64,000 nucleotides of DNA from Bradyrhizobium sediminis. Its GTDB lineage: Bacteria; Pseudomonadota; Alphaproteobacteria; Rhizobiales; Xanthobacteraceae. A program made the translations under genes and the position numbers. Under the pieces are notes generated by a model. That model was given only the letters and a program-made list of their open reading frames with translations. It did not search any database and had not been told where the DNA came from. The stretch covers positions 1,746,501 through 1,810,500 of the forward strand of contig NZ_CP076134.1 of the NCBI RefSeq assembly GCF_018736085.1. Reading direction: 5' to 3'. Positions 5,604 to 27,578 of this stretch are shown here, in pieces (positions within the stretch are counted from its first letter, which is position 1; every line of letters begins with the position of its first letter).

Positions 5604-6812
5604 GTGCGGCCGATCTATCTCGACAACAATGCGACGACGCGCGCGGATCCTGCCGTCGTCGCAGCCATGCTGCCGTATTTCTCGGAGCAGTTCGGAAATG
5701 CCTCGTCGGCGCACGCCTTCGGCAGTGAGGTGGCGGGGGCGGTGAAGCAGGCGCGCAAGAGCTTGCAGGCGCTGCTCGGTTCGGCCTTCGACCACGAAAT
5801 CGTATTCACTTCTGGCGGTACCGAATCCGACAACGCCGCCATTCTGTCGGCCCTCGACAATCAGGACCGCCGTGACGAGATCGTCACGACCGCCGTCGAG
5901 CATCCTGCCATCCTGTCGCTGGTGGAATACCTCGCGGCGTCGCGCGGCATCAAAGCGCATTTCGTCGGGGTCGATTCGCGGGGTCGGCTGGATATCGAAG
6001 CCTATCGGCGCGCGCTCGGCCCGCGCACCGCGATCGCCTCGGTGATGTGGGCGAACAACGAGACCGGAGCGCTGTTCCCGGTCGAGCGGCTGGCCGTCAT
6101 GGCACATGAGGCCGGCGCGCTGTTCCATACCGACGCCGTCCAGGCGGTCGGCAAGGTCCCGCTCGATCTGAAGGCGACCGCGATCGACATGCTGTCGTTG
6201 TCGGGACACAAGCTGCACGGACCCAAGGGCATCGGGGCGCTATACCTGCGCAAAGGTACGAAATTCAATCCGCTGATTCGTGGCGGACCCCAGGAGCGGC
6301 GGCGGCGCGGCGGCACGGAGAATGTACCGGCCATCGTTGGATTGGGAAAAGCAGCCGAGCTGGCGCTGACACAGATGCAGGACGAGCAGGCCGGCGTTCG
6401 TGCCCTGCGCGACCGTCTTGAATACGGCATCCTCAAGCTCGGCAATTGTTCGGTACTGGGGGACGCGGACAACAGACTTCCCAATACCTCCAATATCGCC
6501 TTCGAGCATCTCGAAGGCGAAGCCATCCTTCATCATTTGAACCGGGCGGGCATCGCAGCTTCGCTGGGCTCGGCCTGCGCCTCCGGTTCGATGGAGCCGT
6601 CGCACGTGCTGCGCGCGATGAATGTGCCGATGGCGGCACTGCGCGGCGCTATCCGGTTTTCACTGTCGCGCGACAATACGATCGATGACGTCGTCTGCGT
6701 ATTGAATTTGCTGCCGGAGATCATTGCCAGGCTGAGGGCGTCGTCGCCGTCATGGCAGGAGCGCGCACATATCACGGCGAATCCATCCCGGTCCACGGAG
6801 CTGACCTCATGA
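5604..6812 (+). CDS. nifS: NifS cysteine desulfurase
   Basis: Encodes 402 residues starting with GTG at 5604, with GAGG 6 bases upstream and the typical N-terminus IYLDNNATT. It is a PLP enzyme that releases sulfur from cysteine as a persulfide for Fe-S assembly. Visible active-site parts are the PLP lysine in SGHKLHG (Lys203), the histidine in VEHPAIL and the catalytic cysteine Cys325 in SACASGSMEPSHVL, a class I loop. Its stop overlaps the nifT start (ATGA). Confidence 0.95.
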   Translation: MRPIYLDNNATTRADPAVVAAMLPYFSEQFGNASSAHAFGSEVAGAVKQARKSLQALLGSAFDHEIVFTSGGTESDNAAILSALDNQDRRDEIVTTAVEHPAILSLVEYLAASRGIKAHFVGVDSRGRLDIEAYRRALGPRTAIASVMWANNETGALFPVERLAVMAHEAGALFHTDAVQAVGKVPLDLKATAIDMLSLSGHKLHGPKGIGALYLRKGTKFNPLIRGGPQERRRRGGTENVPAIVGLGKAAELALTQMQDEQAGVRALRDRLEYGILKLGNCSVLGDADNRLPNTSNIAFEHLEGEAILHHLNRAGIAASLGSACASGSMEPSHVLRAMNVPMAALRGAIRFSLSRDNTIDDVVCVLNLLPEIIARLRASSPSWQERAHITANPSRSTELTS

Positions 6813-15126: not shown

Positions 15127-15798
15127 TCATCCGGCATCCTGATCTTCGCGACGTGAAAACCTGGCAAGTGTTGCCGTATTGTACCCTTCCTCGCGCAACA
15201 CGCGCTGGACTGCGGGGCGCGCGAGCATGCGCATGTAATGCGTCACAAGACTATCCGGCAGCGCAATATTGGTCTTGTCGGCCCAGAATTCGACATAGAA
15301 GAGGATTGCATCGGCGACCGAGTAGTCGCCTGCCAGATAGGGTCCGGTTTCGATCGTGTTGTTCAGAATCGCAAAGCCCTTTGCGACGATGTCGCGGCCG
15401 AGGTCACGCACCGAGTCGTGGTCGGCTGGATTGCGGGCAAACGTGCTGGTGGCGAAGATGCGGGCGAAGCCCTGGCCGTGGATGGTCCCCACGACATAGG
15501 CCATGGCTTCGATCAGGCGGCACTCGCTCTCGATGCCGTTCGGCCACAGTCTGGCGCGCGGATAGCTGCGCGCCAGCCAATAAGCGATGGCCGGAACTTC
15601 GGTGAGCGATGTGCCATCGCGGCGTACCAATGTCGGAATCGTCGATTTTGGATTGATCGCGACATAATCCGGCTTGAACTGCTCGCCGGCCGGCAGGTTC
15701 ACCACGTGGGCCTCGAACGTCTCTTCCAGCTCCTCCAGAATGATATGGATAGCCGTCGAGCACGACCCGGGGGTCATGTAGAGCTTCATGGCTGCCAT
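15127..15798 (-). CDS. Glutathione S-transferase family protein
   Basis: Encodes 223 residues. Start at 15798 (MAAMKLYMTPGSCS) has AAAGGA upstream; the longer frame to 16062 would cross the promoter region. The N-terminal thioredoxin-like domain has MTPGSCSTA as glutathione-binding loop and STIPTLVRRDG with TEVPAIAYWLA; the C-terminal helical domain has YLAGDYSVADAILFY. GST genes occur in other nif regions; the substrate is unknown. A NifA site lies at 15925. Confidence 0.85.
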   Translation of the reverse strand: MAAMKLYMTPGSCSTAIHIILEELEETFEAHVVNLPAGEQFKPDYVAINPKSTIPTLVRRDGTSLTEVPAIAYWLARSYPRARLWPNGIESECRLIEAMAYVVGTIHGQGFARIFATSTFARNPADHDSVRDLGRDIVAKGFAILNNTIETGPYLAGDYSVADAILFYVEFWADKTNIALPDSLVTHYMRMLARPAVQRVLREEGYNTATLARFSRREDQDAG

Positions 15799-15853
15799 CG
15801 GTGGTCCTTTCGGCATCTCGCGGAACAGTGGATCCCGGGCGCACGCGCCCTCG

Positions 15854-15869
15854 CGGCATGCTTCATGCA
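15854..15869 (+). promoter_or_regulatory. Candidate sigma-54 promoter for the 15950 operon
   Basis: CGGCATGCTTCATGCA has GG-N10-GC. The -12 half is ATGCA rather than TTGCA. It faces the gene at 15950; the NifA site lies downstream of the expected start, which is atypical. Confidence 0.5.
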
Positions 15870-15881
15870 AATATCGGGTCA
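15866..15881 (-). promoter_or_regulatory. Candidate sigma-54 promoter for the GST gene
   Basis: The minus strand reads TGACCCGATATTTGCA: a perfect -12 half, but GA instead of GG at -24. The NifA site 15925-15940 is 44 bp upstream. It overlaps the plus-strand candidate by four bases, so the two would compete. Confidence 0.35.
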
Positions 15882-15924
15882 GTAGTGTTTTGCGGGCTCG
15901 TCGATGGGGCGAGTACGACAGCAA

Positions 15925-15940
15925 TGTCGTCTTTGCGACA
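15925..15940. promoter_or_regulatory. NifA site between the GST gene and the 15950 gene
   Basis: TGTCGTCTTTGCGACA is an exact TGT-N10-ACA. It ends only 9 bp before the ATG at 15950, so it fits the GST promoter better than the plus-strand operon. Confidence 0.6.
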
Positions 15941-15949
15941 AGGACAGGT

Positions 15950-16258
15950 ATGGCGATCGATCTCAAGAGCGAATGGTCCGCCGCTGATGTCAGCGCGCTG
16001 CTTGCTTCGGTCGAGGATGATCGGAGCTGGCGTCTCGAAGTCCTGGCTGACGGGACGGCCAAGCTGAATGATCTGAGCGCCGTGCCGGACGCAGCTTATG
16101 AAGAGTCGCTGCACTGCTTCTTCGAGATCTGGGAGCAGGGAACGGACTTCGTCGGTCCGGGCGCCGCATGCGACAAGAGCTTGTGCAAGAAGATCGAGAA
16201 ACTCCTTCGAGAGAATTATCCGGCGCTCAAGGGCGCGCGGACGCTTTCAGCGCTCTGA
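15950..16258 (+). CDS. Protein of unknown function, first in a five-gene set
   Basis: Encodes 102 residues; AAGGACAGG precedes the ATG. It is acidic, with three cysteines (LHCFFEIWEQG, ACDKSLCKK). It lies 21 bp before a Rieske gene and probably shares its transcript with the four genes that follow. No family recognised. Confidence 0.6.
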   Translation: MAIDLKSEWSAADVSALLASVEDDRSWRLEVLADGTAKLNDLSAVPDAAYEESLHCFFEIWEQGTDFVGPGAACDKSLCKKIEKLLRENYPALKGARTLSAL

Positions 16259-16279
16259 GCGATGGCAGGGGGGTAAGGC

Positions 16280-16765
16280 ATGAAAGGCGCGCCGCTCGCG
16301 GAACGAGGTCGGGAGATGTCGTCAACTGAACTTGAGGTCTTCGCCGTTTGCGCTGCCGACGACATCGAGCGGGGCGATGCCAGGGCCTTCAGCCTGTCGC
16401 GCGTCACCGAGGCCGGCGAGAACCGGCCGTTTCCGATCGTCATCGTCCGGACCCATGCCGACGGCTATTTCGGCTATGTCAATTCCTGCCCGCATGAAGG
16501 CATCTGGCTCAATTTCGGGGAAGGCAACTTCTTCACGCCGGATCGGGCATTCCTCAAATGCGGCAGGCACGGTTCGACCTTCGAGATTGAAACCGGGCTG
16601 TGCATCGACGGACGGTGCAAGGACAAGAGCCTGGAGCCGATCGCGCTCGCGGTGGTCGATGGCGACGTCTGTGTTTGCGGCGTTGCGCTGGTCGAGGACC
16701 ACGGCGTGCCCAATCCGTTCGATGAACTCGACGATACCATGGAAATCATGATTCATCCGGATTGA
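16280..16765 (+). CDS. Second Rieske-type [2Fe-2S] ferredoxin
   Basis: Encodes 161 residues. Ligands are Cys70-Pro-His72 and Cys94-Gly-Arg-His97, followed by the GLCIDGRC segment also present in the paralog at 3559. It is longer at both ends than that paralog. There is no membrane segment. Two soluble Rieske ferredoxins in one nif region suggest dedicated redox partners. The partner of this one is not evident from its neighbours. Confidence 0.8.
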   Translation: MKGAPLAERGREMSSTELEVFAVCAADDIERGDARAFSLSRVTEAGENRPFPIVIVRTHADGYFGYVNSCPHEGIWLNFGEGNFFTPDRAFLKCGRHGSTFEIETGLCIDGRCKDKSLEPIALAVVDGDVCVCGVALVEDHGVPNPFDELDDTMEIMIHPD

Positions 16766-16813
16766 CGAGGGGAGCTGCGCCGCCCGGCGACGGCCCAACG
16801 AGGAGGCCTGTGA

Positions 16814-17152
16814 ATGGACGATGTGAATCGGGAGTGCAGGTTCTTCGTCTCCTATAGCGGCGTCAAACTGCCTTTCAACCTCGTGAACCCGATCGATCCG
16901 GAAATGCTCTCGCACCGCAACACCTTCATCCGCGCCTATTTCGACCAGGCGGGGAAGTTGAGCGGTTTCGACAAGGTCGTTTATGGCGAGGTTGAACTCT
17001 CGCACCGTTACGAATATCACGCCAATGGCGCGTTGAAGCGGGCGGAGATCGCAATGCCGGATGAGGAGCCGGCGGCGCTCGACTTCGACGAGGCCGCGGC
17101 GCCCGGTGTTCGGCCCGTGAGGGCGGCGGGAATTGACGAGGAAGGCCCATGA
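16814..17152 (+). CDS. Nif-associated protein of unknown function
   Basis: Encodes 112 residues. The N-terminal 75 residues look conserved (RFFVSYSGVKLPFNLVNPI, RNTFIRAYFD, VVYGEVELSHRYEY), suggesting a beta-rich domain; the C-terminal part is acidic and low in complexity. GAGGAGG lies before the ATG. It overlaps the next small gene by ATGA. Confidence 0.7.
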   Translation: MDDVNRECRFFVSYSGVKLPFNLVNPIDPEMLSHRNTFIRAYFDQAGKLSGFDKVVYGEVELSHRYEYHANGALKRAEIAMPDEEPAALDFDEAAAPGVRPVRAAGIDEEGP

Positions 17153-17316
17153 CGGTCGCAGGATTGCTTGAAGCGCTGGCGAAGATGCCAAAGGATGCGG
17201 TCGTCCTGATGGAGAGCGGCGGCGGTTTGTCGCTTGTCGCCGGGCTCGATTTCGTCGAGGAACAGGGGGCCGGCGCGCCGGCCGAGGTCATCTTGCTGCC
17301 GAACATGGATGAGTGA
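17149..17316 (+). CDS. Very small nif-region protein (55 residues)
   Basis: ATG at 17149 overlaps the previous stop and follows GAGGAAGG; the frame ends with TGA at 17314. The translation begins MTVAGLLEALAKMP and ends ILLPNMDE, a plausible soluble alpha/beta mini-domain. Its coupling, ribosome site and codon use all match its neighbours, so I consider it real. Function unknown. Confidence 0.65.
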   Translation: MTVAGLLEALAKMPKDAVVLMESGGGLSLVAGLDFVEEQGAGAPAEVILLPNMDE

Positions 17317-17364
17317 TCTTTTCGTCGAACGTCGCCGCCATGCGCGGCGACCCCGGAGTGAATG

Positions 17365-17793
17365 ATGTCTGAGATCGTAGCGGAAATATCGATGTTCGAG
17401 CGAATCGGCGGCGCCGTCGTCGTCGATCGGCTGGTGGAGGCATTCTACGGCAGGATGGACGCGCTGCCTGAAGCGACCACGATCAGGGCCATGCACGCGG
17501 CGGATCTCGGGCCGGTCAAGAATGTGCTCAAGCGTTATCTGACCGAGTGGACCGGCGGCCCCAAGCTCTATTCTCCGGAAAAGGGCCACCCGCGGCTGCG
17601 GCAGCGGCATATGGGATTTGCGATCGGCAACGCCGAGCGCGATGCATGGCTGCTCTGTATGCGCGGTGCGCTCGAGGAGACGGTCGCAGACGGCAATGCG
17701 CGGCAGGAACTCGACATGGCGTTGACCAAGCTCGCGGACTGGATGCGCAACCAGGCCGGCAATCCTCACGACGCCGGAACCGGGCGTCCCTGA
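17365..17793 (+). CDS. Truncated haemoglobin (group II-like globin)
   Basis: Encodes 142 residues. The 2/2 globin pattern is clear: MFERIGGAVVVDRLVEAFYGRMD at the start, LTEWTGGPKLYSPEKGHPRLRQRHMGFAIG in the E-F region (His in HPRLRQRH near the haem), and AWLLCMRGAL for helix G. Start at 17365 is preferred over 17362 by spacing from GGAG. It may scavenge NO or O2 near nitrogenase; it ends the 15950 gene set. Confidence 0.85.
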   Translation: MSEIVAEISMFERIGGAVVVDRLVEAFYGRMDALPEATTIRAMHAADLGPVKNVLKRYLTEWTGGPKLYSPEKGHPRLRQRHMGFAIGNAERDAWLLCMRGALEETVADGNARQELDMALTKLADWMRNQAGNPHDAGTGRP

Positions 17794-17836
17794 GACAAGC
17801 AGTGAGATCGCTGCGGCAACCTGGCTCCGGCTTCGA

Positions 17837-18076
17837 TCACAGCGGGGTTCCGAAAAACGCCTCTTCGTCGCCGCCCCAGGCCTTGTGCAACGCCAGCGCG
17901 CTGCGCCATTTTGCAGCCTCGGAATCGTCGGCGTTGCGATGGGTGATCTTGCCGTCGGGGTTTTCGGCGAGCAGGTAGGCCTTCCCGTTTCGGATGAAAC
18001 GATTGAGGTCCTTGGTGTCGGTCGGACGCACGACGCATCGCGGCGCCTCGTCGATGACAATGGTGGTCGGAAGCAT
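17837..18076 (-). CDS. Small protein of unknown function, last in the yqeB-led set
   Basis: Encodes 79 residues; start at 18076 follows AGGAGAG. It has one cysteine, a basic/aromatic LNRFIRNGKAYLLAENPDGKI core and a C-terminal WGGDEEAFFG. It lies 30 bp after the preceding small gene. No family recognised. Confidence 0.6.
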   Translation of the reverse strand: MLPTTIVIDEAPRCVVRPTDTKDLNRFIRNGKAYLLAENPDGKITHRNADDSEAAKWRSALALHKAWGGDEEAFFGTPL

Positions 18077-18106
18077 ATCTTCTCTCCTTTCCATCAAGTC
18101 CGATGG

Positions 18107-18352
18107 CTAGAACCCGTCTTCCCGTCGGCCCCAGGGATGTGCGCCGGCTACAAGCGGGGCCTTGACGCCGGCTTTTTCGATGTCGGAGAGGCTCTTGTAG
18201 AACGTGCCCTCGTGAACCAATGTGCCGCCCTTGGTGGTGATCGCCACATAGCGGGCCCCGGGATCGGTCTCGCAAAGATAACCGCCGCCCGGATCGAGCG
18301 TTGAGCGGGCGTTGCCATCCCAATCGATGAAGAAACCGGCTGCTATCGACAT
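18107..18352 (-). CDS. Small protein of unknown function
   Basis: Encodes 81 residues; GAAGGAGA precedes the ATG. It contains FIDWDGNARSTLDPGGGY and ARYVAITTKGGTLVHEG, suggesting a small beta-rich protein. One cysteine. It lies in the minus-strand operon running from 21512 to 17837. Confidence 0.6.
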   Translation of the reverse strand: MSIAAGFFIDWDGNARSTLDPGGGYLCETDPGARYVAITTKGGTLVHEGTFYKSLSDIEKAGVKAPLVAGAHPWGRREDGF

Positions 18353-18433
18353 CGAAAGTCTCCTTCAAGTCATTCCCGTCGACCTCTGACGGGTTCGATC
18401 GGGTTCGCGACTGCCCCAGCCGCATTGCGCGGA

Positions 18434-18754
18434 CTACGGACCGTCAGCGTCCGAAACCAGCTTCGCCAATCCCTTCTCGATGATGGCAAGGCAGGCCAGA
18501 AAGCGATCGTATTCCGCCTTGCTGATGCTGATCATTTCGGATGAGGCGAGCGGCGCCGATCGGGATGTCGCCGCTTCAACCGCCTCGAACAGGACTTTTT
18601 CGAGCTGAAAGATCCGCTCGCTCGCCCGCTCCAGGTAGGGCAGGGGATTGGCGCGAATGTTCGCCTCGTGCAAGGCGCTCAGTTCCAGAAGCGTTCGCAG
18701 GCGGCGCGCGGCCTTGCGATCCTCGGTACCGAAATCGTGCCTGATGACGCTCAT
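18434..18754 (-). CDS. Helical protein of unknown function
   Basis: Encodes 106 residues, almost entirely predicted helical (KAARRLRTLLELSALHEANI; SERIFQLEKVLFEAVEAA), with a possible short coiled coil around residues 40-65. One cysteine near the C-terminus. It lies 99 bp after the hydrolase gene in the yqeB-led set. Confidence 0.58.
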   Translation of the reverse strand: MSVIRHDFGTEDRKAARRLRTLLELSALHEANIRANPLPYLERASERIFQLEKVLFEAVEAATSRSAPLASSEMISISKAEYDRFLACLAIIEKGLAKLVSDADGP

Positions 18755-18853
18755 CGCTTTCTCTGCGCCCCGCGCGGCAGGCGATCGATCTCGGAGCGGT
18801 CGCCGGTTGCGTTGCAGCTATGTCCTGGCGCTTCACTCCGCATCGTTGTCGCA

Positions 18854-19624
18854 TCAATCCATCGGCGGTTCGAGATCGTCGGCGCCTTCTTTCTTCTTCT
18901 TTTTCTTCTCGACCTTGGCCTGGGCGTAGGCCCCGGCATTCTTCAGGGCGATCGGGGGTTGGCCCTCGACATATTGGGAGATCCACACCAGCGTCCGTGC
19001 CAGTGCCGCTTTCGCCGCCTCGTCGTGATAGCTGTCGCGGTCGTCGCAATTGAACGCGTGCGCCGCGCCCGGATACGAGAATGCGCTGACATCCGGCCGG
19101 TGCGATCGAAACTGGCTAACCTGCTCGAGGGGAGTCAGCGGATCGGCCTCGCCAAAATGCAGCAGGGTAGGCACTTTCCGCTTTTCGCGGTAATCGTCGA
19201 CGATCCCGCCGCCATAATACCCGACGGTACATGCCACTCCGCTGACGCGATTGGCGGAAACGTAGGCGAGGTATCCGCCCCAGCCATATCCGACGACCGT
19301 CACCTTGCCGGCGCTCTTGACGGCATCCACCGTCTCTTGAATATCGCCGATCGCGCGGTCCGTGCCGACCTGTTGCATCAGGTTCGCGCCCTCGGCGAGG
19401 CCGCCTTCGTCATAACCCAGTGCGACGTCCGCCTTCACGGAGTCGAAAAGCGCTGGCGCGATGGCGAGATAGCCCTTCGCGGCGAATTCGTCCGTGACCT
19501 TTCGGATCTGGGGATTGATGCCGAAGCGATCCTGAATGACGACGACGGCGCCTTTTGGCATCCCGTCGGGATCGGCACGATAGGCGGAAAACCTGTGTCC
19601 GTCGCCGGCTGTCAGCTCGATCAT
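18854..19624 (-). CDS. Dienelactone hydrolase family protein without its nucleophile
   Basis: Encodes 256 residues with an alpha/beta-hydrolase fold. The nucleophile elbow reads VGYGWGGYLAY; the position that is Cys in dienelactone hydrolase (GxCxGG) is Gly114. The nearby glutamate is Asp32 (VIQDRFGIN). The acid (GEADPLTP) and base (GAAHAF) remain. A lysine run and an acidic tail close the protein. Catalysis by the usual mechanism looks unlikely. It sits between the MIP18-like gene and small unknowns in a NifA-linked operon. Confidence 0.8.
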   Translation of the reverse strand: MIELTAGDGHRFSAYRADPDGMPKGAVVVIQDRFGINPQIRKVTDEFAAKGYLAIAPALFDSVKADVALGYDEGGLAEGANLMQQVGTDRAIGDIQETVDAVKSAGKVTVVGYGWGGYLAYVSANRVSGVACTVGYYGGGIVDDYREKRKVPTLLHFGEADPLTPLEQVSQFRSHRPDVSAFSYPGAAHAFNCDDRDSYHDEAAKAALARTLVWISQYVEGQPPIALKNAGAYAQAKVEKKKKKKEGADDLEPPMD

Positions 19625-19667
19625 GGTGTCCTCGTCTCTCTCGGTTCTGTTGCTGCAAAGGTGGATT

Positions 19668-20051
19668 TCAGATCAAGCCCAGTTCCAGTTGAACGTCTTC
19701 CGACATTCGTGACTTGTCCCAGGGCGGATCGAACACAAGATTGACATCCACGGTGCCGACGCCCTCGACGCCAATGACAGCTGTCTGCACCATCTTCACC
19801 ATTTCGCCGGCGACGGGACAGCCGGGCGCCGTTAGTGTCATGTCGATCTCAACATGGCCCCATTGTTTCGGCTCTATCCGGTAAATCAGTCCGAGATCGT
19901 AGATGTTTACCGGTATCTCCGGATCATGCACCGTGCGCAGCGCAGCGATGATGCGCTCGGTCAGGCTGCTCGAGCCTGTCTCGGAGGGAGCCAGCGCGTC
20001 ACCGCCCGCAAGCGTCGGTGAGGCGACATCGATTCTGCCATCATCCATCAT
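19668..20051 (-). CDS. MIP18/DUF59 family Fe-S assembly factor (SufT/PaaD-like)
   Basis: Encodes 127 residues. Conserved HDPEIPVNIYDLGLIY, LTAPGCPVAG with the key cysteine, and FDPPWDKSRMS define the family. The 30-residue N-terminal extension is low in complexity. Such proteins take part in Fe-S cluster maturation. Position in an operon headed by a molybdoenzyme factor under sigma-54 control suggests a nitrogenase-related role (inference). Confidence 0.88.
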   Translation of the reverse strand: MMDDGRIDVASPTLAGGDALAPSETGSSSLTERIIAALRTVHDPEIPVNIYDLGLIYRIEPKQWGHVEIDMTLTAPGCPVAGEMVKMVQTAVIGVEGVGTVDVNLVFDPPWDKSRMSEDVQLELGLI

Positions 20052-20132: not shown

Positions 20133-20612
20133 TCAACTGACGCCCTCGGCCAGCGCCGCGACGACCGGCCATCCGACGGCGCCCGCGGGATCCAGCCGCT
20201 GCAAAGCTGCGAGCATCTGGTTGGCTCGCTGCGGGTCGTTCTGCCGCAGATGGATGAAAGCGAGTGCCTTCAAGGTGTAGAGCGCAAAACGGCCGGGGCC
20301 ATCGGGAACAACGCGCTGCGGCTGCCATTGCCGCCAGTCGGCGTCCCATCCTGCCTGGCTTGCCGCTTCCCTAAGGCCGCTCTCTGCCGCGATCTGCGCC
20401 TGGTCGAGATGGCCCTGATAGGTATGGATCTTGTACAGGCAGAAGTAGATCGGAAGCTGCGCCGGCGCCGCCGCCAGCGCCCGCCGAAACAGCCGGTCCG
20501 CCTGCGCGCGATCGTGGCGATAGACCGCGACTCCCTGTTGCAGCAACGCGTCGACGTCTTCGGGAAGGTCTCCGAAATTGATCGTGTCGCGTTCTGCGAA
20601 CAGCTCGGTCAT
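20133..20612 (-). CDS. TPR-like helical protein, paralog of the 10380 gene
   Basis: Encodes 159 residues. Repeated helical pairs (GVAVYRHDRAQADRLFRRAL; LYTLKALAFIHLRQNDPQRA) fit tetratricopeptide units. The similarity to the nifB-operon protein at 10380 lies in the middle and end. No cysteines other than one in YFCLYK. It lies 36 bp after the yqeB-like gene and is probably an adaptor. Confidence 0.7.
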   Translation of the reverse strand: MTELFAERDTINFGDLPEDVDALLQQGVAVYRHDRAQADRLFRRALAAAPAQLPIYFCLYKIHTYQGHLDQAQIAAESGLREAASQAGWDADWRQWQPQRVVPDGPGRFALYTLKALAFIHLRQNDPQRANQMLAALQRLDPAGAVGWPVVAALAEGVS

Positions 20613-20648: not shown

Positions 20649-21512
20649 TCACTTGACGAGGTGAAGCGTCTGGCCGGTCTTCTCCGGAACATTCGGCTGA
20701 TGCAACGAAATAGCCTTTGCCACGGCGTTCGCAATGAGCTGGCCCCGGCTGTCGATGCCGGTCCAGTTCGCCTTGCGCCCGCGGGAATCGATTTCAAGAA
20801 GCTTTACGCCCGAGGGCACCTCGGTCCCGTCGCGGACGACGCCTCGCAGGATGCCGTCGAACGGCGCGCGTACCGGGATGTTTCCGAGATGGCCGACGAC
20901 GTAATCCTTGAAGACACGCGTGCCGATTTCGATTGCCGTCTTCCATCGGCCGGAGCATTCCGAGCGGACGAAGCGTTCCCCCCAGTGATTTCCAAGGCGG
21001 CGCGACACGCCATCGGGCGGATCCGCCGGCCCTTGCCGGACGATCTGTCCCGCTTTGCCCGGCCACGTTTCGATCGCGACGTCACAATTGGAGCCGCCGC
21101 AAAAGCCGGGGCCGAGACCTATCGTCAATCGGGCGAGCCGGCGCAAATCGGGGGTGGCGAGATATTTCTGCATCCTGGCATCCACCAAAATATCCAGGCT
21201 GCGCAGGACAATGAGATCAAGCAGCCCAAGCTCGGTGACGAGAACGCCGGGCGCGCGTCCGAAACTGGCGCGAATTTCGAAGCCGGTGTCGGCCCGCTGC
21301 GCTGCAACGCCGGCAACGCTGACCGCATCCTCGAACAGCGCATCATGGAAGGCCATTTTTCGCCGGATCACCGGCGGCAACGGATCATGCGAAAGGACCA
21401 CTCCATAGCCATTGCGGCGAAGCAGTACCGCGACGGCCGAAGCAATCTCGTTGGTGCCGAGAATCACGGCGAATCGATCAGGTGAATTGAGCCGCATAGT
21501 CTGGGTTCTCAT
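20649..21512 (-). CDS. YqeB/EF2563-type (XdhC-related) molybdenum hydroxylase maturation factor
   Basis: Encodes 287 residues from ATG at 21512 (21497 also possible). The region FAVILGTNEIASAVAVLLRRNGYGVVLSHDP and the MAFHDALFED segment match the YqeB/EF2563 group linked to molybdenum hydroxylases; GLGPGFxGGxNCD and VRAPFDGILRGVVRDGTEV follow. The chosen starts lie just downstream of a sigma-54 promoter (21539-21554); an upstream start at 21731 would precede it. A role in handling Mo or its cofactor for nitrogenase is an inference. Confidence 0.72.
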   Translation of the reverse strand: MRTQTMRLNSPDRFAVILGTNEIASAVAVLLRRNGYGVVLSHDPLPPVIRRKMAFHDALFEDAVSVAGVAAQRADTGFEIRASFGRAPGVLVTELGLLDLIVLRSLDILVDARMQKYLATPDLRRLARLTIGLGPGFCGGSNCDVAIETWPGKAGQIVRQGPADPPDGVSRRLGNHWGERFVRSECSGRWKTAIEIGTRVFKDYVVGHLGNIPVRAPFDGILRGVVRDGTEVPSGVKLLEIDSRGRKANWTGIDSRGQLIANAVAKAISLHQPNVPEKTGQTLHLVK

Positions 21513-21538
21513 GGCTGGCCGTCGAGTTCCATTCTGGA

Positions 21539-21554
21539 AGCAAGAGCCGGGCCG
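21539..21554 (-). promoter_or_regulatory. Sigma-54 promoter of the yqeB-led operon
   Basis: The minus strand reads CGGCCCGGCTCTTGCT: GG-N10-GC, perfect TTGCT. Transcription would begin near 21527. The NifA site is about 140 bp upstream. Confidence 0.68.
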
Positions 21555-21691
21555 AGGAGATCGAGGCCAGAATAGAAGAGATAAAAAAACCACTGCGATC
21601 GACCGGATGCGGCATTTCAGTGCGGATATGGCGTTTCCGTCGTGATCGGACGCGGGACGCGCGTCATATCCGGAACAGTGCCGGCGTTGGA

Positions 21692-21707
21692 TGTCGTAAA
21701 CCCGACA
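21692..21707. promoter_or_regulatory. NifA site shared by yqeB-like and bolA operons
   Basis: TGTCGTAAACCCGACA is an exact TGT-N10-ACA with extended dyad (TGTCG/CGACA). It lies 85 bp upstream of the plus promoter and 138 bp upstream of the minus one. Apart from these elements the 334-base gap 21513-21846 holds no gene. Confidence 0.87.
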
Positions 21708-21791
21708 TCTGACGGCGTGCCTTCGCGCCAAAATGTGAAAATCGGAACGCTATTCCAGCGTTGCGGCGAGAGCCCGGTGCTGTTGGCGAGT

Positions 21792-21807
21792 TGGTTTGGA
21801 CCTTGCA
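21792..21807 (+). promoter_or_regulatory. Sigma-54 promoter of the bolA-grx4-ferredoxin operon
   Basis: TGGTTTGGACCTTGCA: GG-N10-GC with perfect -12 half. The frame start at 21796 is inside it, so translation must begin at 21847. Confidence 0.78.
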
Positions 21808-21846
21808 AGGAGAAGCCAGGAGATCGTCACAGCAGGAGCGAACGCG

Positions 21847-22080
21847 ATGGCAATGGCCGGACCGGACATCGAACGTCTCATCAAGCAGGCCTTCCCGGAT
21901 GCGCATGTCGTCGTCGTGGACCTCGCCGGGGACGGCGACCATTACGGCGCGCGCGTCACCTCCGCGGCCTTCACCGGCAAAAGCCGGATCCAGCAGCACC
22001 AGATGGTCTACGCCGCGCTGCAGGGGCAGATGGGGGGCGCCCTCCATGCGCTGGCTCTCGAAACCGTGGCGCCGAAGTAG
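21847..22080 (+). CDS. BolA family protein
   Basis: Encodes 77 residues from ATG at 21847, preceded by GGAGCG. The family core is visible: [30 protein letters not shown], then [18 protein letters not shown]. BolA proteins form [2Fe-2S]-bridged complexes with CGFS glutaredoxins, and the next gene encodes one. The pair may carry clusters or sense iron for nitrogenase synthesis. Confidence 0.9.
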
Positions 22081-22135
22081 TGGCCCTCGTCGGCATCCGG
22101 CGGGCCAAACGCAATCAACCATCGAGGAGAACAAG

Positions 22136-22468
22136 ATGATGAGTTCAACGGCCGGGCGTATCAAGGACGTGATCGCAAGCAGCGACGTCGTGCTGTTCAT
22201 GAAGGGCGTGCCGGCCGCGCCGCAATGCGGATTTTCCGCAGCCGTGGTGCAGATCCTCTCCAGCCTCGCGGTGCCGTTCAAGAGCGTCGATGTGCTCTCT
22301 GATCCGCAAATTCGCGAGGGCATCAAGACCTTCTCGAACTGGCCGACCATCCCGCAGCTCTACGTCAAGGGCGAATTCCTCGGCGGTTCCGACATCGTCA
22401 GGGAAATGTTTCAGGCCGGAGAGCTCAAGGCGTTGTTGAGCGACAAGGGAATTGCGACCACGACATGA
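22136..22468 (+). CDS. grxD: Monothiol glutaredoxin (Grx4/CGFS type)
   Basis: Encodes 110 residues. The CGFS active site begins at Cys31 ([11 protein letters not shown]), with [20 protein letters not shown] as glutathione-binding segment. Such proteins hold a [2Fe-2S] cluster with glutathione and pass it on. GAGGAGAA precedes the ATG. Next to bolA, it is probably a nif-specific copy besides a housekeeping one elsewhere. Confidence 0.93.
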
Positions 22469-22830
22469 CAGACACGGCTGACATCGCGGAAGCATCCGAT
22501 TTCGACCTCCCGCAGGTCTATAAACATCACGTCTTTGCCTGCCACACGCAGCGGCCGCCGGGCCATCCGCGTGGAAGCTGCGGGGCCTTGGGCGCCCAGC
22601 CGCTATGGGATCGGCTGGGCAAGGCGATCGAGACCGAAGGACTGGCCGAGATCGGCTTTACCGCCTCGGGCTGTCTCGGCTTCTGCAAGGCCGGTCCGCT
22701 GATGGTCGTCTATCCCGAGGGAGTCTGGTATCGGCCGACCACACCGGAGGATATCGACGAAATCGTCGAACAGCATTTCAAGCAGGGCAAGCGGGTGGAT
22801 CGCCTCGTCATGGTGCTGACGCGGCGCTGA
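22465..22830 (+). CDS. Thioredoxin-like [2Fe-2S] ferredoxin
   Basis: Encodes 121 residues. Cysteines occur as [17 protein letters not shown] and [10 protein letters not shown], the C-x(10-12)-C...C-x3-C arrangement of clostridial-type thioredoxin-fold ferredoxins. ATGA overlap with grxD. Homologs occur near nif genes and may carry electrons or serve in cluster repair. [10 protein letters not shown] is the conserved strand after the last ligand. Confidence 0.88.
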
Positions 22831-22887: not shown

Positions 22888-23709
22888 TCAGGGGCCTGGA
22901 GATGGGCTGGGGCCGGCGTCCGATTGGGCTGTGCTTCGTCCGCTGCGCTTGGGGCGAAGGAGCGTCAGGCACTCGATGGATTGCGCGAGGTCAAGCGCCG
23001 AAAAGCCGTCCAGCATTTCCGGGGTGACGTCGGCCCCCTTTGCCAGCAAACGCTCGACGGCGGCCGCCTTGCCCGACGAGGCCGCGTACATCAGGGGCGT
23101 CGCGCCATTGTCGTTCCGATTGTCGAGGTCGATCCCGGCTTCGACCAGGGTGTCGATCAGATCCAGGTGGCCGCCGACGCAGGCGAGCCACAGCGCGTTG
23201 TTGCCATCGGCATTTCGTGCATTGACCTCGGCGCCCGCGGCAATCAGCAAGCGAACGATCTTGCCGTCGCCAATGTGGGATGCTCTCATCAGCGGTGTCG
23301 TGGCGTTGGCGATGACGGCGTTGACGCCGGCAGGCGGGAAATGCTGCGCGACCAGCCATTGCTCCAACCCAGCATCGGGCGCGCCGCTTCCGCTCGCCGG
23401 TGGCCTGCTGCGCCAGGCCTCGTATCCGCCGTCGAGGCTATAGACCTCGGAGAACCCGAAATCGGAAAAGATCTGCGCATATTCGCGGCTGGCGTTGCCG
23501 TGATAGCAATAGATCAGAACCGGCCGAATTCTGGCGGTGGCGTTGAGAACGCCCGACAGGTTGGCAGATGAAACGTGCTGCGCGCCATGGATGTGAGAGT
23601 TGTCGAAGGAGCCGGCGTCGCGAACGTCGAGCACGAGCAGATCGGCGCGCGAGATGAGAGCCCCGGCCTGCTGGATGTCGATGCGCTGGAACGGGGGGCG
23701 CAGTCTCAT
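22888..23709 (-). CDS. Rhodanese domain fused to ankyrin repeats
   Basis: Encodes 273 residues. Residues 10-100 form a single rhodanese domain with active loop CYHGNAS (Cys68), as in GlpE. Residues about 130-245 hold three to four ankyrin repeats (TTPLMRASHIGDGKIVRLLIAAGAEVNARNADG..., GATPLMYAASSGKAAAVERLLAKGADV). It could deliver sulfane sulfur to a partner bound by the repeats. Its start overlaps the SagB-like stop (ATGA). Confidence 0.88.
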   Translation of the reverse strand: MRLRPPFQRIDIQQAGALISRADLLVLDVRDAGSFDNSHIHGAQHVSSANLSGVLNATARIRPVLIYCYHGNASREYAQIFSDFGFSEVYSLDGGYEAWRSRPPASGSGAPDAGLEQWLVAQHFPPAGVNAVIANATTPLMRASHIGDGKIVRLLIAAGAEVNARNADGNNALWLACVGGHLDLIDTLVEAGIDLDNRNDNGATPLMYAASSGKAAAVERLLAKGADVTPEMLDGFSALDLAQSIECLTLLRPKRSGRSTAQSDAGPSPSPGP

Positions 23710-25352
23710 GCCGGGGTTTCCTTGAACGGTTGTATCCGCCTGCCCGGATAGGCAGGCAATGTCGAAATGCGGCCATCGATCAGAGGCCGTCCGACGGTGA
23801 AATGGTAGAGCGCCTGAAATTGCGTGGTGGCGATTCCAAGTATCTCATGCAGGGCATCGTCGAAGTAGCAACCAATGCCGGTGCCGCGCAGTCCGGCGGC
23901 TTCCGCCTCCAGGTAGAGGACGTGCCCGAGAAGTCCGGCTTCCCAGTGCAGCTGGCGGTAGCGCCAGGGGTTGGCGCTGACGATGGAGTCGAATTCGCTG
24001 AGCATGCTGAGCGCGAAGCAGCCGTCGCTGGCAATCGCCTGGTGGCAGTTCATGGTCCTCGCAATGACCCGGCAATCGGTTCGCAGCAGCCTGACAAAGG
24101 GAAGATGTGCCGGCGTTCTTTCCGGGGTCTGCCACTCGAAATCGCCGCGCAGTTGCCTGCGGAGAGCATGTGCCGCCGCGGTGCTTCGCGGCAATGCATA
24201 GACGCCGGGGTCGAGCCCATCGACCCGATGGACGAAGAAGATGGGATGAATACACGGCGCAAAATTCCAGACGTCCCAGGGAGCGTTCGGTCGATCGAGC
24301 AGGCAATCCAGCAGACGATAGAAGGTATCCGCGCTCATCCTGAATTTGCTGTCGAAGCGTTGCGCGCTGCGCCGGCCGAGGATGACATCTGTGGCGCGGG
24401 CTTCGGAGCTTTGCTGCAGGGGCGGATAGTTCGGAAAATCCGATCGCAAGCCGCTGCCCCGTCCCTGCGTGGCCTGGCTCACTTGCCCGATCGCGGGCCA
24501 GCGATAGAGGGGATGCGGATCGAGCAGGTTCGCCTGTCCGGCCCATTGATTTCGGTCGCTTTCAGGGGTGCCGGGAACGCCATGTTCCGGCGCCGGGTTC
24601 GTCGATGGGGCAGAGTCGATCGCAATCAGGAGCTCGGCGTCTTCGCCTTCCACGCCCGAAAAGGCATCGGTGCGATCGAGGCCCAGCAATGCCGCGAGTT
24701 CGGTGCTCGTCAGATCCTCGACCAGCGTCGCGCGCCATCCCAACGCGCCGGCGGCATAGCGCAGAGCGCCGAGGGCATGGCCGACATCGAGCTGACAATA
24801 GCGGAACGCGCGCTCGCCATACTTCCAGGCTTCCCGCCATTGCACCGATGAGAGGCCGATCCAGAGCCGGCCCGGCGCGCCGGATTGATCGTTGCTCCGG
24901 CATCGCAACTCCAGCAAATGATCGCGGCTCAAATAGTGGTGCAGCCCGTCGATGATGCCGGGCACGTTGCGGGAGAGAATGTAGGCTTCGGTCGGATGCA
25001 GATTGCCGCTCGATGGATTGCAGCGCAGCGCCCAGCGATCCGGCCCGTATTCCTTCCAGGCGGAGAGGCCAAAGGAAAGCTCCAGCAGCTTGCCGACCGT
25101 TTCGATCGTGAGCGCAGCCGGGGCAATTCCGCCGGGCGTGCAAGCCTGGGCAAAGCTCGTTGCAAGCTGGTCAGCGCCAAGATCGAGTTCAGTTCGCGCG
25201 CAGCCCGCGAATTCGCGGAACGGATTGGGCTGCGTGTCCCAGTCGAGCGTTTCGGGGCCGGCGGCGTAGCGCTTGAGCGTGTGCTTTGTCCGCGCGTGAT
25301 AAGCGAAGACAATGTCCGCGGGGCTCAAGGCCTGTGTTGCCGCGACGTTCAT
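23706..25352 (-). CDS. SagB/ThcOx-type two-domain nitroreductase family protein
   Basis: Encodes 548 residues from ATG at 25352, which overlaps the upstream stop. Two nitroreductase-like halves are visible: residues about 75-235 with LRCNPSSGNLHPTEAY, and 330-530 with RRSAQRF, FVHRV and GLLGHVLYLEAEAAGLRGTGIGCYFDD. SagB/ThcOx proteins are FMN oxidases known from azole-forming peptide clusters. No cyclodehydratase or precursor peptide gene is near, so the role here must differ. It is part of a four-gene coupled set. Confidence 0.82.
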   Translation of the reverse strand: MNVAATQALSPADIVFAYHARTKHTLKRYAAGPETLDWDTQPNPFREFAGCARTELDLGADQLATSFAQACTPGGIAPAALTIETVGKLLELSFGLSAWKEYGPDRWALRCNPSSGNLHPTEAYILSRNVPGIIDGLHHYLSRDHLLELRCRSNDQSGAPGRLWIGLSSVQWREAWKYGERAFRYCQLDVGHALGALRYAAGALGWRATLVEDLTSTELAALLGLDRTDAFSGVEGEDAELLIAIDSAPSTNPAPEHGVPGTPESDRNQWAGQANLLDPHPLYRWPAIGQVSQATQGRGSGLRSDFPNYPPLQQSSEARATDVILGRRSAQRFDSKFRMSADTFYRLLDCLLDRPNAPWDVWNFAPCIHPIFFVHRVDGLDPGVYALPRSTAAAHALRRQLRGDFEWQTPERTPAHLPFVRLLRTDCRVIARTMNCHQAIASDGCFALSMLSEFDSIVSANPWRYRQLHWEAGLLGHVLYLEAEAAGLRGTGIGCYFDDALHEILGIATTQFQALYHFTVGRPLIDGRISTLPAYPGRRIQPFKETPA

Positions 25353-25789
25353 TGCGACGGGGATATCGATGACGGAACAGGATCTGGGCAGGACACCGAT
25401 ACCGGCGGTCGGCTGCAGGCTTCGACGTCGTCGCCGACGGGGTCGCCAAGCAGGGTTGTGACCGGTTCGCGGTCGAAGCCCGCGCATCTTTGCCCTTCCG
25501 TTTCCACGAGCGGCCGCCGGATCAGCAGGGGATCGTCGAGCATCAGCGCGAGCGCGCTCGCGGCGTCGAGTTTTGCAGGCACGATCTCGCCGGACTTGAC
25601 GCGCGGCGCGGCCGGATTGAACCACGCGGTCACCGGGGTTGATCCGAAAAAGCCGCGCAACGCCTCGGCGGTCCATGGTTCCGCTAGCAGGCTCTTTGCG
25701 ATGACGGTATGACCGGCAGCCTCGAGCATCCGCCTCTGGCGCGCATTCGTCGCACAGCCCGGCTTCTGGTAGAACTGGATCGTCGCCAT
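25349..25789 (-). CDS. nifO: NifO-like ArsC-fold nitrogenase-associated protein
   Basis: Encodes 146 residues, start at ATG 25789 (a TTG frame start at 25798 is less likely). FYQKPGCATNARQRRMLEAAGHTV and FNPAAPRVKSGEIVP match the nitrogenase-associated group of the arsenate-reductase (thioredoxin-like) fold. NifO in Azotobacter affects Mo use and nitrate effects on nitrogen fixation. The C-terminal 30 residues are extra and include two cysteines. Confidence 0.82.
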   Translation of the reverse strand: MATIQFYQKPGCATNARQRRMLEAAGHTVIAKSLLAEPWTAEALRGFFGSTPVTAWFNPAAPRVKSGEIVPAKLDAASALALMLDDPLLIRRPLVETEGQRCAGFDREPVTTLLGDPVGDDVEACSRPPVSVSCPDPVPSSISPSQ

Positions 25790-25800
25790 CCTGGCCAAAC

Positions 25801-26235
25801 CTAGGCGGGAAGGCCGAGCTGGACCAGCGGCGCCGCGCCGTCCCGGCCGAGGATCGTATCCACCTTCTTCCGGACGTTCTCCAGGGTGAGCGGCTTGACC
25901 AGTGCGCCATGCGCGCCGGCCTTCAAACCATCCAGGGCGGTGGCTTCGTCAGACTTCGCGCAAATGATGAGAATGCGGACGCCGGGGAATTTCGCCACCA
26001 GTTCGCCGATCAATGCCGCGCCCCTCTGCTTCAGGAACGAGACGCCAAGCAGCACGACATGGGGCTTGAGCCAGTCGACGCCCTTTTCATAGGCCTCTTC
26101 GGGGCTCACCAGCTCGTGGGTTTCGATTTCGTCGTGCAACATGAACTGCAGCGCGGCGCGGGTGATCTCGTCATCGTCGATGACGAACACGCGCCGCTGG
26201 TCGACAGCCTTCGATGTTTCGACGCCGATCTGCAT
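25801..26235 (-). CDS. Receiver-domain protein without the phosphoacceptor aspartate
   Basis: Encodes 144 residues; a very strong AAAGGAGG lies before ATG 26235. It is a stand-alone receiver fold: VFVIDDDE gives the acidic pocket (Asp20-21) and ALVKPLT the conserved Lys114. At the acceptor position (PHVVLLGVS) Gly64 replaces aspartate. It cannot be phosphorylated in the usual way, so it may act as a constitutive or ligand-controlled switch. It is first in the operon with NifO-like, SagB-like and rhodanese-ankyrin genes. Confidence 0.85.
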   Translation of the reverse strand: MQIGVETSKAVDQRRVFVIDDDEITRAALQFMLHDEIETHELVSPEEAYEKGVDWLKPHVVLLGVSFLKQRGAALIGELVAKFPGVRILIICAKSDEATALDGLKAGAHGALVKPLTLENVRKKVDTILGRDGAAPLVQLGLPA

Positions 26236-26292: not shown

Positions 26293-26308
26293 AGCAATTT
26301 TCATTCCG
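26293..26308 (-). promoter_or_regulatory. Sigma-54 promoter of the receiver-nifO operon
   Basis: The minus strand reads CGGAATGAAAATTGCT: GG-N10-GC, perfect TTGCT. It lies 58 bp before ATG 26235, with a NifA site 84 bp upstream. Confidence 0.65.
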
Positions 26309-26391: not shown

Positions 26392-26407
26392 TGTCTGATT
26401 TCGAACA
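26392..26407. promoter_or_regulatory. NifA site shared by nifH and the receiver operon
   Basis: TGTCTGATTTCGAACA is an exact TGT-N10-ACA, about 100 bp upstream of the nifH -24 element and 84 bp from the divergent promoter. Confidence 0.88.
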
Positions 26408-26505
26408 GGCGCCACACAGCCGGAGGGCCGCTGTCGGCTTCAAAACATCCAGCTGTTTTCAGAAAGCCGGGCGTTTCAGAAGCTGAATCATCAACTTAAG
26501 GGGAG

Positions 26506-26521
26506 TGGCACGGCGGTTGCT
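26506..26521 (+). promoter_or_regulatory. Sigma-54 promoter of nifH
   Basis: TGGCACGGCGGTTGCT is a perfect -24/-12 match; the leader to nifH ATG is about 140 nt. Confidence 0.96.

Positions 26522-26546: not shown

Positions 26547-27578
<1,032 letters not shown>

Follow-up and report, generated by a model that had tools for sequence, protein, structure and literature searches.

Organization of the locus

This analysis concerns four adjacent genes beside nifH in Bradyrhizobium sediminis. They lie on the reverse strand of a 64,000-nucleotide stretch of contig NZ_CP076134.1 (positions 1,746,501 to 1,810,500; hereafter the window, whose own numbering is used unless stated), and the host genome is a single contig of 5.55 Mb. 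The row spans exactly 22888–26235. It begins with a 144-residue pseudo-receiver (25801–26235; Response_reg match, 4.7e-14), followed by NifO, an ArsC-fold nitrogenase-associated protein (25349–25789; TIGR01616 profile). The third gene encodes a 548-residue tandem SagB-like protein of nitroreductase fold, a presumed flavin mononucleotide (FMN) oxidoreductase (23706–25352; PF00881 Nitroreductase, TIGR03605). The last encodes a 273-residue protein in which a GlpE-like rhodanese with a CYHGNAS loop is fused to ankyrin repeats (22888–23709; Pfam PF00581 plus ankyrin).

The receiver stop codon is spaced 11 nucleotides from the NifO ATG. The other two junctions are ATGA stop/start overlaps, at 25349–25352 between NifO and SagB and at 23706–23709 between SagB and the rhodanese–ankyrin gene. 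An initial annotation had named these four genes and described the last three as ATGA-coupled; coordinates, family scans and overlaps all agree with that description. The row is divergent from nifH (26676–27578, forward strand), whose start codon was picked by eye and which shares 89% identity with the nifH annotated in Methylococcus EFPC2. Both nifH and nifQ are on the strand opposite to the row.

Promoter elements

The gap between nifH and the receiver gene contains two NifA-type upstream activator sites of the form TGT-N10-ACA, TGTCTGATTTCGAACA at 26392–26407 and TGTCGGCTTCAAAACA at 26432–26447. The window holds 12 copies of this form against 4.7 expected. A perfect canonical −24/−12 element serves nifH (26506–26521, forward strand). 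A weak −24/−12 element, CGGAATGAAAATTGCT, faces the receiver gene (26293–26308, reverse strand) and fits 9 of 12 consensus positions. It is the best receiver-facing element, but 53 places on the two strands of the 64 kb score 9 or more (shuffle p about 0.1).

The receiver-facing element gains weight from being kept in related loci. The form GGAAYR-N4-TTGCW has a single copy on either strand of the whole 64 kb, which is the receiver element itself. Of 20 related nifH/receiver gaps, 15 have it 50–140 nucleotides ahead of the receiver, with zero matches on the opposite strand of any gap, and it totals 28 matches per 2.93 million bases over both strands of all retrieved loci. Because the pattern was written post hoc from the observed sites and the compared loci are homologous, this result is one of conservation and not a blind test.

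The receiver gene had been thought to follow a sigma-54 element and to share its NifA site with nifH. The region indeed combines two activator sites with a −24/−12 element that is weak, off-consensus in its −24 half, and conserved. Judged from these sites, NifA and sigma-54 probably activate the operon, and we infer the same control in vivo.

The tandem SagB-like protein

Residues 82–228 of the SagB-like protein score 96.3 bits against TIGR03605 (cut-off 78.4), which places it in that family. A tandem nitroreductase fold resembling Protein Data Bank (PDB) entry 3eo7 is predicted to span the whole chain; the Foldseek and VIA lists behind this include many ordinary nitroreductases and are evidence for the fold alone. 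K177 and Y178 align with the Lys-Tyr pairs of McbC and ThcOx, so that fold and motif agree with the proposed SagB/ThcOx type. The pair is catalytic in McbC. It is present in 52 of 52 aligned rows, an invariance that is partly by construction because the loci were retrieved by WREAWKY or DRWA[LV]RCN. Cys495 is likewise invariant and adjoins a glycine predicted to lie near flavin N5.

Alignment to BmdC shows that motifs for a single FMN site are retained, and FMN binding is presumed on that basis. An Arg-Arg-Ser clamp is common to both proteins. Gln331 occupies the position of an arginine that, according to the BmdC report (PMC8795117), contacts the flavin ring; the same report describes the clamp.

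The tandem protein could instead be a flavin store or an inert scaffold that holds FMN without turnover, for assembly or flavin supply. The mycobacterial Acg proteins bind FMN in this way. The invariant cysteines and Lys-Tyr pair, the latter subject to retrieval bias, favour catalysis, and we regard storage as improbable.

The initial annotation had noted that no cyclodehydratase gene is present, and a genome-wide YcaO profile search (PF02624, E up to 0.001) was empty. A thiazole/oxazole-modified microcin (TOMM, azole-peptide) cluster was accordingly rejected: with no YcaO match in the whole genome, azole-peptide synthesis is unlikely. No RRE leader-binding domain was found among Pfam and NCBIfam matches at E up to 0.001. 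Another use of the same chemistry would be post-translational oxidation, in which a residue or heterocycle is dehydrogenated by the SagB-like enzyme, either in a dedicated protein or in a small metabolite; the substrate would be the pseudo-receiver, NifO or a nitrogenase factor. The genome offers this enzyme no known azoline-forming partner, and Gln331 replaces the flavin-ring arginine of BmdC. This explanation is unlikely.

The receiver, NifO and rhodanese–ankyrin proteins

The receiver is degenerate, as had been claimed. The phosphoacceptor position, located by eye from the receiver pattern, is glycine in all 25 aligned rows, which represent 24 distinct sequences because that of the window appears twice; the protein thus lacks the signature of a phosphorylatable regulator. 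The N-terminal half is strongly conserved and similar in all 25 rows, most of which contain MQIGV...FMLHDE.ETHEL. Since this half is kept while the phosphoacceptor is glycine, the domain may be a docking surface and not a phospho-switch.

NifO scores 176.3 bits against TIGR01616, well over the cut-off of 109, and is thus a member of that family, in line with its earlier label. Its PGC motif is present in 25 of 25 aligned rows.

The rhodanese domain matches PF00581 with 65.7 bits, and the active-site loop cysteine is conserved in all 33 rows; the L010 and L059 rows look like rhodaneses from outside the module. Its score against the GlpE equivalog NF001195 is 92 bits, below the cut-off of 102. 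Both the Pfam rhodanese domain and the ankyrin repeats that had been assigned to this protein were found. The ankyrin repeats are similar across classes, which suggests a fixed client. Anti-phage defence was rejected as a function: PADLOC matches only the ankyrin repeats of the rhodanese–ankyrin protein, and none to SagB, NifO or the receiver.

Gene fusions bear on how these proteins act together. SagB and the rhodanese form a single open frame in loci L021, L023 and L027 (663–670 residues), and SagB, rhodanese and ankyrin do so in L024 (808 residues); all are Pfam-confirmed. Methylococcus EFPC2 has the rhodanese and ankyrin parts in two separate genes. From the fusions and the ATGA overlaps, SagB, rhodanese and ankyrin are probably one physical unit or complex.

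Distribution and genomic context

A scan with the SagB alignment confirmed 578 loci, the best 80 of which by similarity were compared. Partners were called from tblastn matches in the vicinity of SagB and on its strand, and some loci stop at contig ends, so the following counts are lower bounds. Near SagB were found the rhodanese in 28 loci, ankyrin in 29, NifO in 23, the receiver in 22 and a divergent nifH in 24. Receiver, NifO and rhodanese occur together in 18 of the 80 loci, and with ankyrin in 15. A nif marker is in reach at 46 of the 80 loci.

The set spans alpha-, beta- and gammaproteobacteria, and its bearers include Azorhizobium, Xanthobacter, Methylocapsa, Rhodoblastus, Sulfuricella, a Hydrogenophilales metagenome-assembled genome and Methylococcaceae. 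Many loci of the Methylobacter type have SagB behind a NifZ-like gene, next to nifU, nifV, nifW and a nifS-like gene, the last named by eye. The initial annotation had staked its idea on conservation of the set near nif genes in other genomes, and the idea survives. Chance or merely local gene order was rejected, as the set recurs beside nif genes elsewhere.

In an unmatched comparison, nifD scored over its cut-off in 71 of the 80 host genomes (36/40 and 35/40) versus 13 of 385 genomes drawn evenly as a class sample. The nearest named relatives of the window protein in the SagB tree are from Bradyrhizobium, and the window belongs to a group of 37 rows (SH-aLRT 98) that holds all 33 placeable partner-bearing loci. 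The tree was built by a quick method with midpoint rooting, and chains longer than 560 residues, fusions among them, were cut at 560. It omits L018 (a 170-residue SagB fragment), L001 (the window copy) and L003–L005 (weak matches).

Bradyrhizobium sp. BTAi1 carries the set in two parts. Its nif cluster has nifQ–nifH, the receiver and NifO, then directly the ferredoxin, glutaredoxin and BolA genes. SagB–rhodanese–ankyrin is at about 2.24–2.26 Mb, versus about 6.11–6.14 Mb for receiver, NifO and nifD. In BTAi1, as at three further Bradyrhizobium loci, SagB is preceded by an activator site of its own and a −24/−12 element of the GGAACG type, a combination found in 4 of 4 loci and in 45 of at most 4000 random windows. 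The detached BTAi1 genes are of the same predicted promoter type as the nif-cluster set. In genome-wide receiver and NifO searches covering 15 chosen genomes, L012, one of these four loci, had no receiver match in its genome.

The block could be a passenger that hitch-hikes near nifH by shared horizontal transfer and plays no part in nitrogen fixation. The patchy distribution is what such transfer would produce, but the fusions, the NifA-type promoter on the detached Bradyrhizobium copies and the conservation of the active site across three classes make this explanation very improbable.

Proposed function

The safest statement is that the genes encode a NifA-linked accessory complex bearing sulfur and flavin. 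Our preferred reading, held tentatively and at somewhat less than even confidence, is an optional nitrogenase accessory operon in which the tandem flavin protein, rhodanese and ankyrin carry out thiol or persulfide chemistry for nitrogenase maturation or protection. Thiol/persulfide redox is favoured because the physical unit combines a flavin protein with a rhodanese. Domain content, fusions and linkage point to a sulfur or redox role; persulfide chemistry, the client and the physiological role are putative. The interpretation first put forward, of an undescribed sulfur/redox maturation or protection module in the nitrogenase regulon, is thus upheld in part: its domain identities, promoter elements, lack of YcaO and conservation stand, and its functional portion keeps the tentative standing just given.

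In the proposed mechanism, the two SagB halves would pair within the chain as a pseudodimer that has a single complete FMN site. The N-terminal half would supply a PSSG loop and the Lys-Tyr pair, and the C-terminal half the Arg-Arg-Ser phosphate clamp and the glycine near flavin N5. The active cysteine of the rhodanese would take up sulfane sulfur. The flavin site, with Cys495, may then exchange electrons with a thiol or persulfide group carried by the rhodanese, by NifO or by a client docked on the ankyrin repeats. The outcome would be sulfur delivered to, or oxidation controlled in, a nitrogenase maturation protein or an Fe-S protein. The pseudo-receiver would act as an unphosphorylated docking or regulatory subunit.

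A more specific version, which we consider quite unlikely, makes SagB–rhodanese–ankyrin a dedicated sulfur donor for cofactor assembly. From thiosulfate, the rhodanese would produce sulfite and a protein persulfide; NifO and the flavin site would set the redox state of the persulfide sulfur, and the module would feed NifB or NifU, including the ninth sulfur of the cofactor. Sulfite is the in vitro source of this ninth sulfur. Of 34 module-bearing genomes (the own one plus those of 33 of 34 listed loci, L029 being left out), 21 have soxB over its cut-off, versus 2 of 11 nifD-positive genomes without the protein (from 12 other such class genomes, excluding G388, which has it), a difference (Fisher p 0.017) that is confounded by taxonomy and assembly quality. 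This excess is a weak hint that fits a thiosulfate link.

The main rival to thiol/persulfide chemistry is protection from oxygen, nitric oxide or peroxide, because globin, Rieske and glutathione transferase genes recur nearby. The flavin protein would consume the oxidant or mend oxidised thiols near nitrogenase together with these proteins, and the rhodanese would serve redox balance and not sulfur donation. The window has a globin gene (17362–17793), a Rieske gene (16280–16765) and glutathione transferase and DUF6156 genes a few kilobases from the set. In Methylococcus EFPC2 the gene row of SagB includes both globin and Rieske genes, and in L025, L031, L033 and L043 it includes one of the two. 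In addition, draT, for dinitrogenase reductase ADP-ribosyltransferase, lies between receiver and NifO in L022 (by similarity) and L024 (by Pfam). However, the stretch from receiver to rhodanese is free of globin and Rieske matches in 14 of 15 complete sets, and the Lys-Tyr pair would indicate substrate oxidation and not oxidant removal. We judge protection possible but doubtful.

Several observations weigh against our preferred reading of an accessory operon for nitrogenase. No nif marker is in reach at 34 of the 80 loci. Among 41 genomes, the own one included, near-full-length SagB matches occur only in the own genome and G023, with two more that are weak and partial; at the genus level, 2 of 25 genomes, again with the own included, have a near-full-length relative. 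The class sample has the protein in 4 of 385 genomes. It is absent from 11 of the 13 nifD-positive ones; the two bearers are the own genome and G388, in which about 0.9 Mb separates it from nifD. The other two of the four, G096 and G346, have no nifD match; their tandem SagB proteins are at about 43–47%, as are those on plasmid loci L007, L008 and L010, whose annotated flanks are without nif genes. In locus L002 of G023, the interval from receiver to SagB is without a NifO match, so NifO is dispensable in the set. The receiver-facing −24/−12 element is off-consensus, and 5 of the 20 related loci lack its derived form. The activator-plus-promoter configuration is absent from the 1 kb before SagB, which is not the first gene in all cases, in 42 of 47 scanned loci (34 without a nif marker, 8 others hand-chosen and 5 plasmid loci), the others being four Bradyrhizobium loci and L089. 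Within SagB, the BmdC segment with Gly294 aligns with a non-significant score, and the retrieval bias in the Lys-Tyr pair counts here as well.

A nif-specific fold was rejected, since distant tandem relatives have no nif linkage; the wider tandem family and its fold are not specific to nif. Because of the sparse distribution and the loci without nif linkage, the set is an optional accessory and not a general nif part.

Neighbouring genes and other loci

A row encoding BolA, Grx4 and a [2Fe-2S] ferredoxin-like protein (21796–22830) is convergent with the four-gene row. It has an activator-type site at 21692–21707 and a −24/−12-like element (9/12) at 21792–21807, and in BTAi1 TGGTTCGGAGCTTGCA stands immediately before the BolA match. 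By these elements, the BolA–Grx4–ferredoxin row may also belong to the NifA regulon.

The interval 15127–20051, which contains the glutathione transferase, Rieske, DUF6156 and truncated globin genes, also has an Fe-S assembly gene (PF01883); the globin, Rieske and glutathione transferase families recur beside SagB in other genomes. A YqeB/XdhC-like gene in the nif region (20649–21731) scores 149.3 bits against TIGR03309, under the cut-off of 220. The protein encoded at 20133–20612 has no Pfam match apart from a weak sub-cut-off TPR; its family occurs in 19 compared sources including the window, many of them nif clusters.

On G000:C1, soxB occurs twice, at 599811–601484 and 661896–663569, with identical scores about 62 kb apart, which suggests a recent duplication. 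L006 encodes a 195-residue protein without a Pfam match (6108–6695 of that locus), with relatives in nif-bearing Methylococcaceae, Acidithiobacillus and Rhizobacter loci. In L010, from Polaromonas plasmid pE3SP1, the distant tandem SagB lies among Fe-S and cofactor genes (Grx4, NifU-like, BolA, lipA, moaA, rhodanese and SelO), with no nifHDK in the stretch examined.

Comparison with known systems

The set is conserved across three proteobacterial classes and tied to nitrogenase through position, fusion and promoter. It places an oxidase fold of the type found with ribosomally synthesized and post-translationally modified peptides (RiPPs) in a genome that lacks a YcaO partner, and retains a receiver domain, probably for something other than phosphorylation. 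A role in sulfur or thiol redox for the cofactor would bear on how cells source the sulfur of the cofactor, and would point to accessory genes to test when nitrogenase is built in new hosts. No description of the set was found in the open full-text literature, judged by title and the start of the abstract (most subscription journals lie outside this scope). The searched terms are absent from the first 300,000 of the 1,541,146 characters of one review (PMC12857756).

The azoline oxidases SagB, McbC, ThcOx and BmdC are close counterparts. They share the nitroreductase fold with the protein described here, which has the Lys-Tyr pair in common with McbC and ThcOx and the Arg-Arg-Ser clamp with BmdC. 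Unlike the azoline oxidases, it consists of two halves in a single chain, each contributing part of the motifs, has Gln at the position of the flavin-ring Arg, and lacks a YcaO partner and an RRE match. Ava_2154 of Anabaena variabilis (PDB 3eo7), a tandem putative nitroreductase, has Arg at the position of Lys177 and Gly at that of Cys495.

GlpE-type single-domain rhodaneses share the CYHGNAS loop and the profile match with the rhodanese of the set. In contrast to GlpE, the latter is below the equivalog cut-off and is fused to ankyrin repeats, or to SagB in relatives. The nifO region of Azotobacter, which we take to be ordered nifB-fdxN-nifO-nifQ-rhdN-grx, likewise brings NifO, a rhodanese and a glutaredoxin together in a nif region. 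In the set described here, by contrast, NifO stands in one gene row with SagB and the rhodanese–ankyrin protein, behind a pseudo-receiver.

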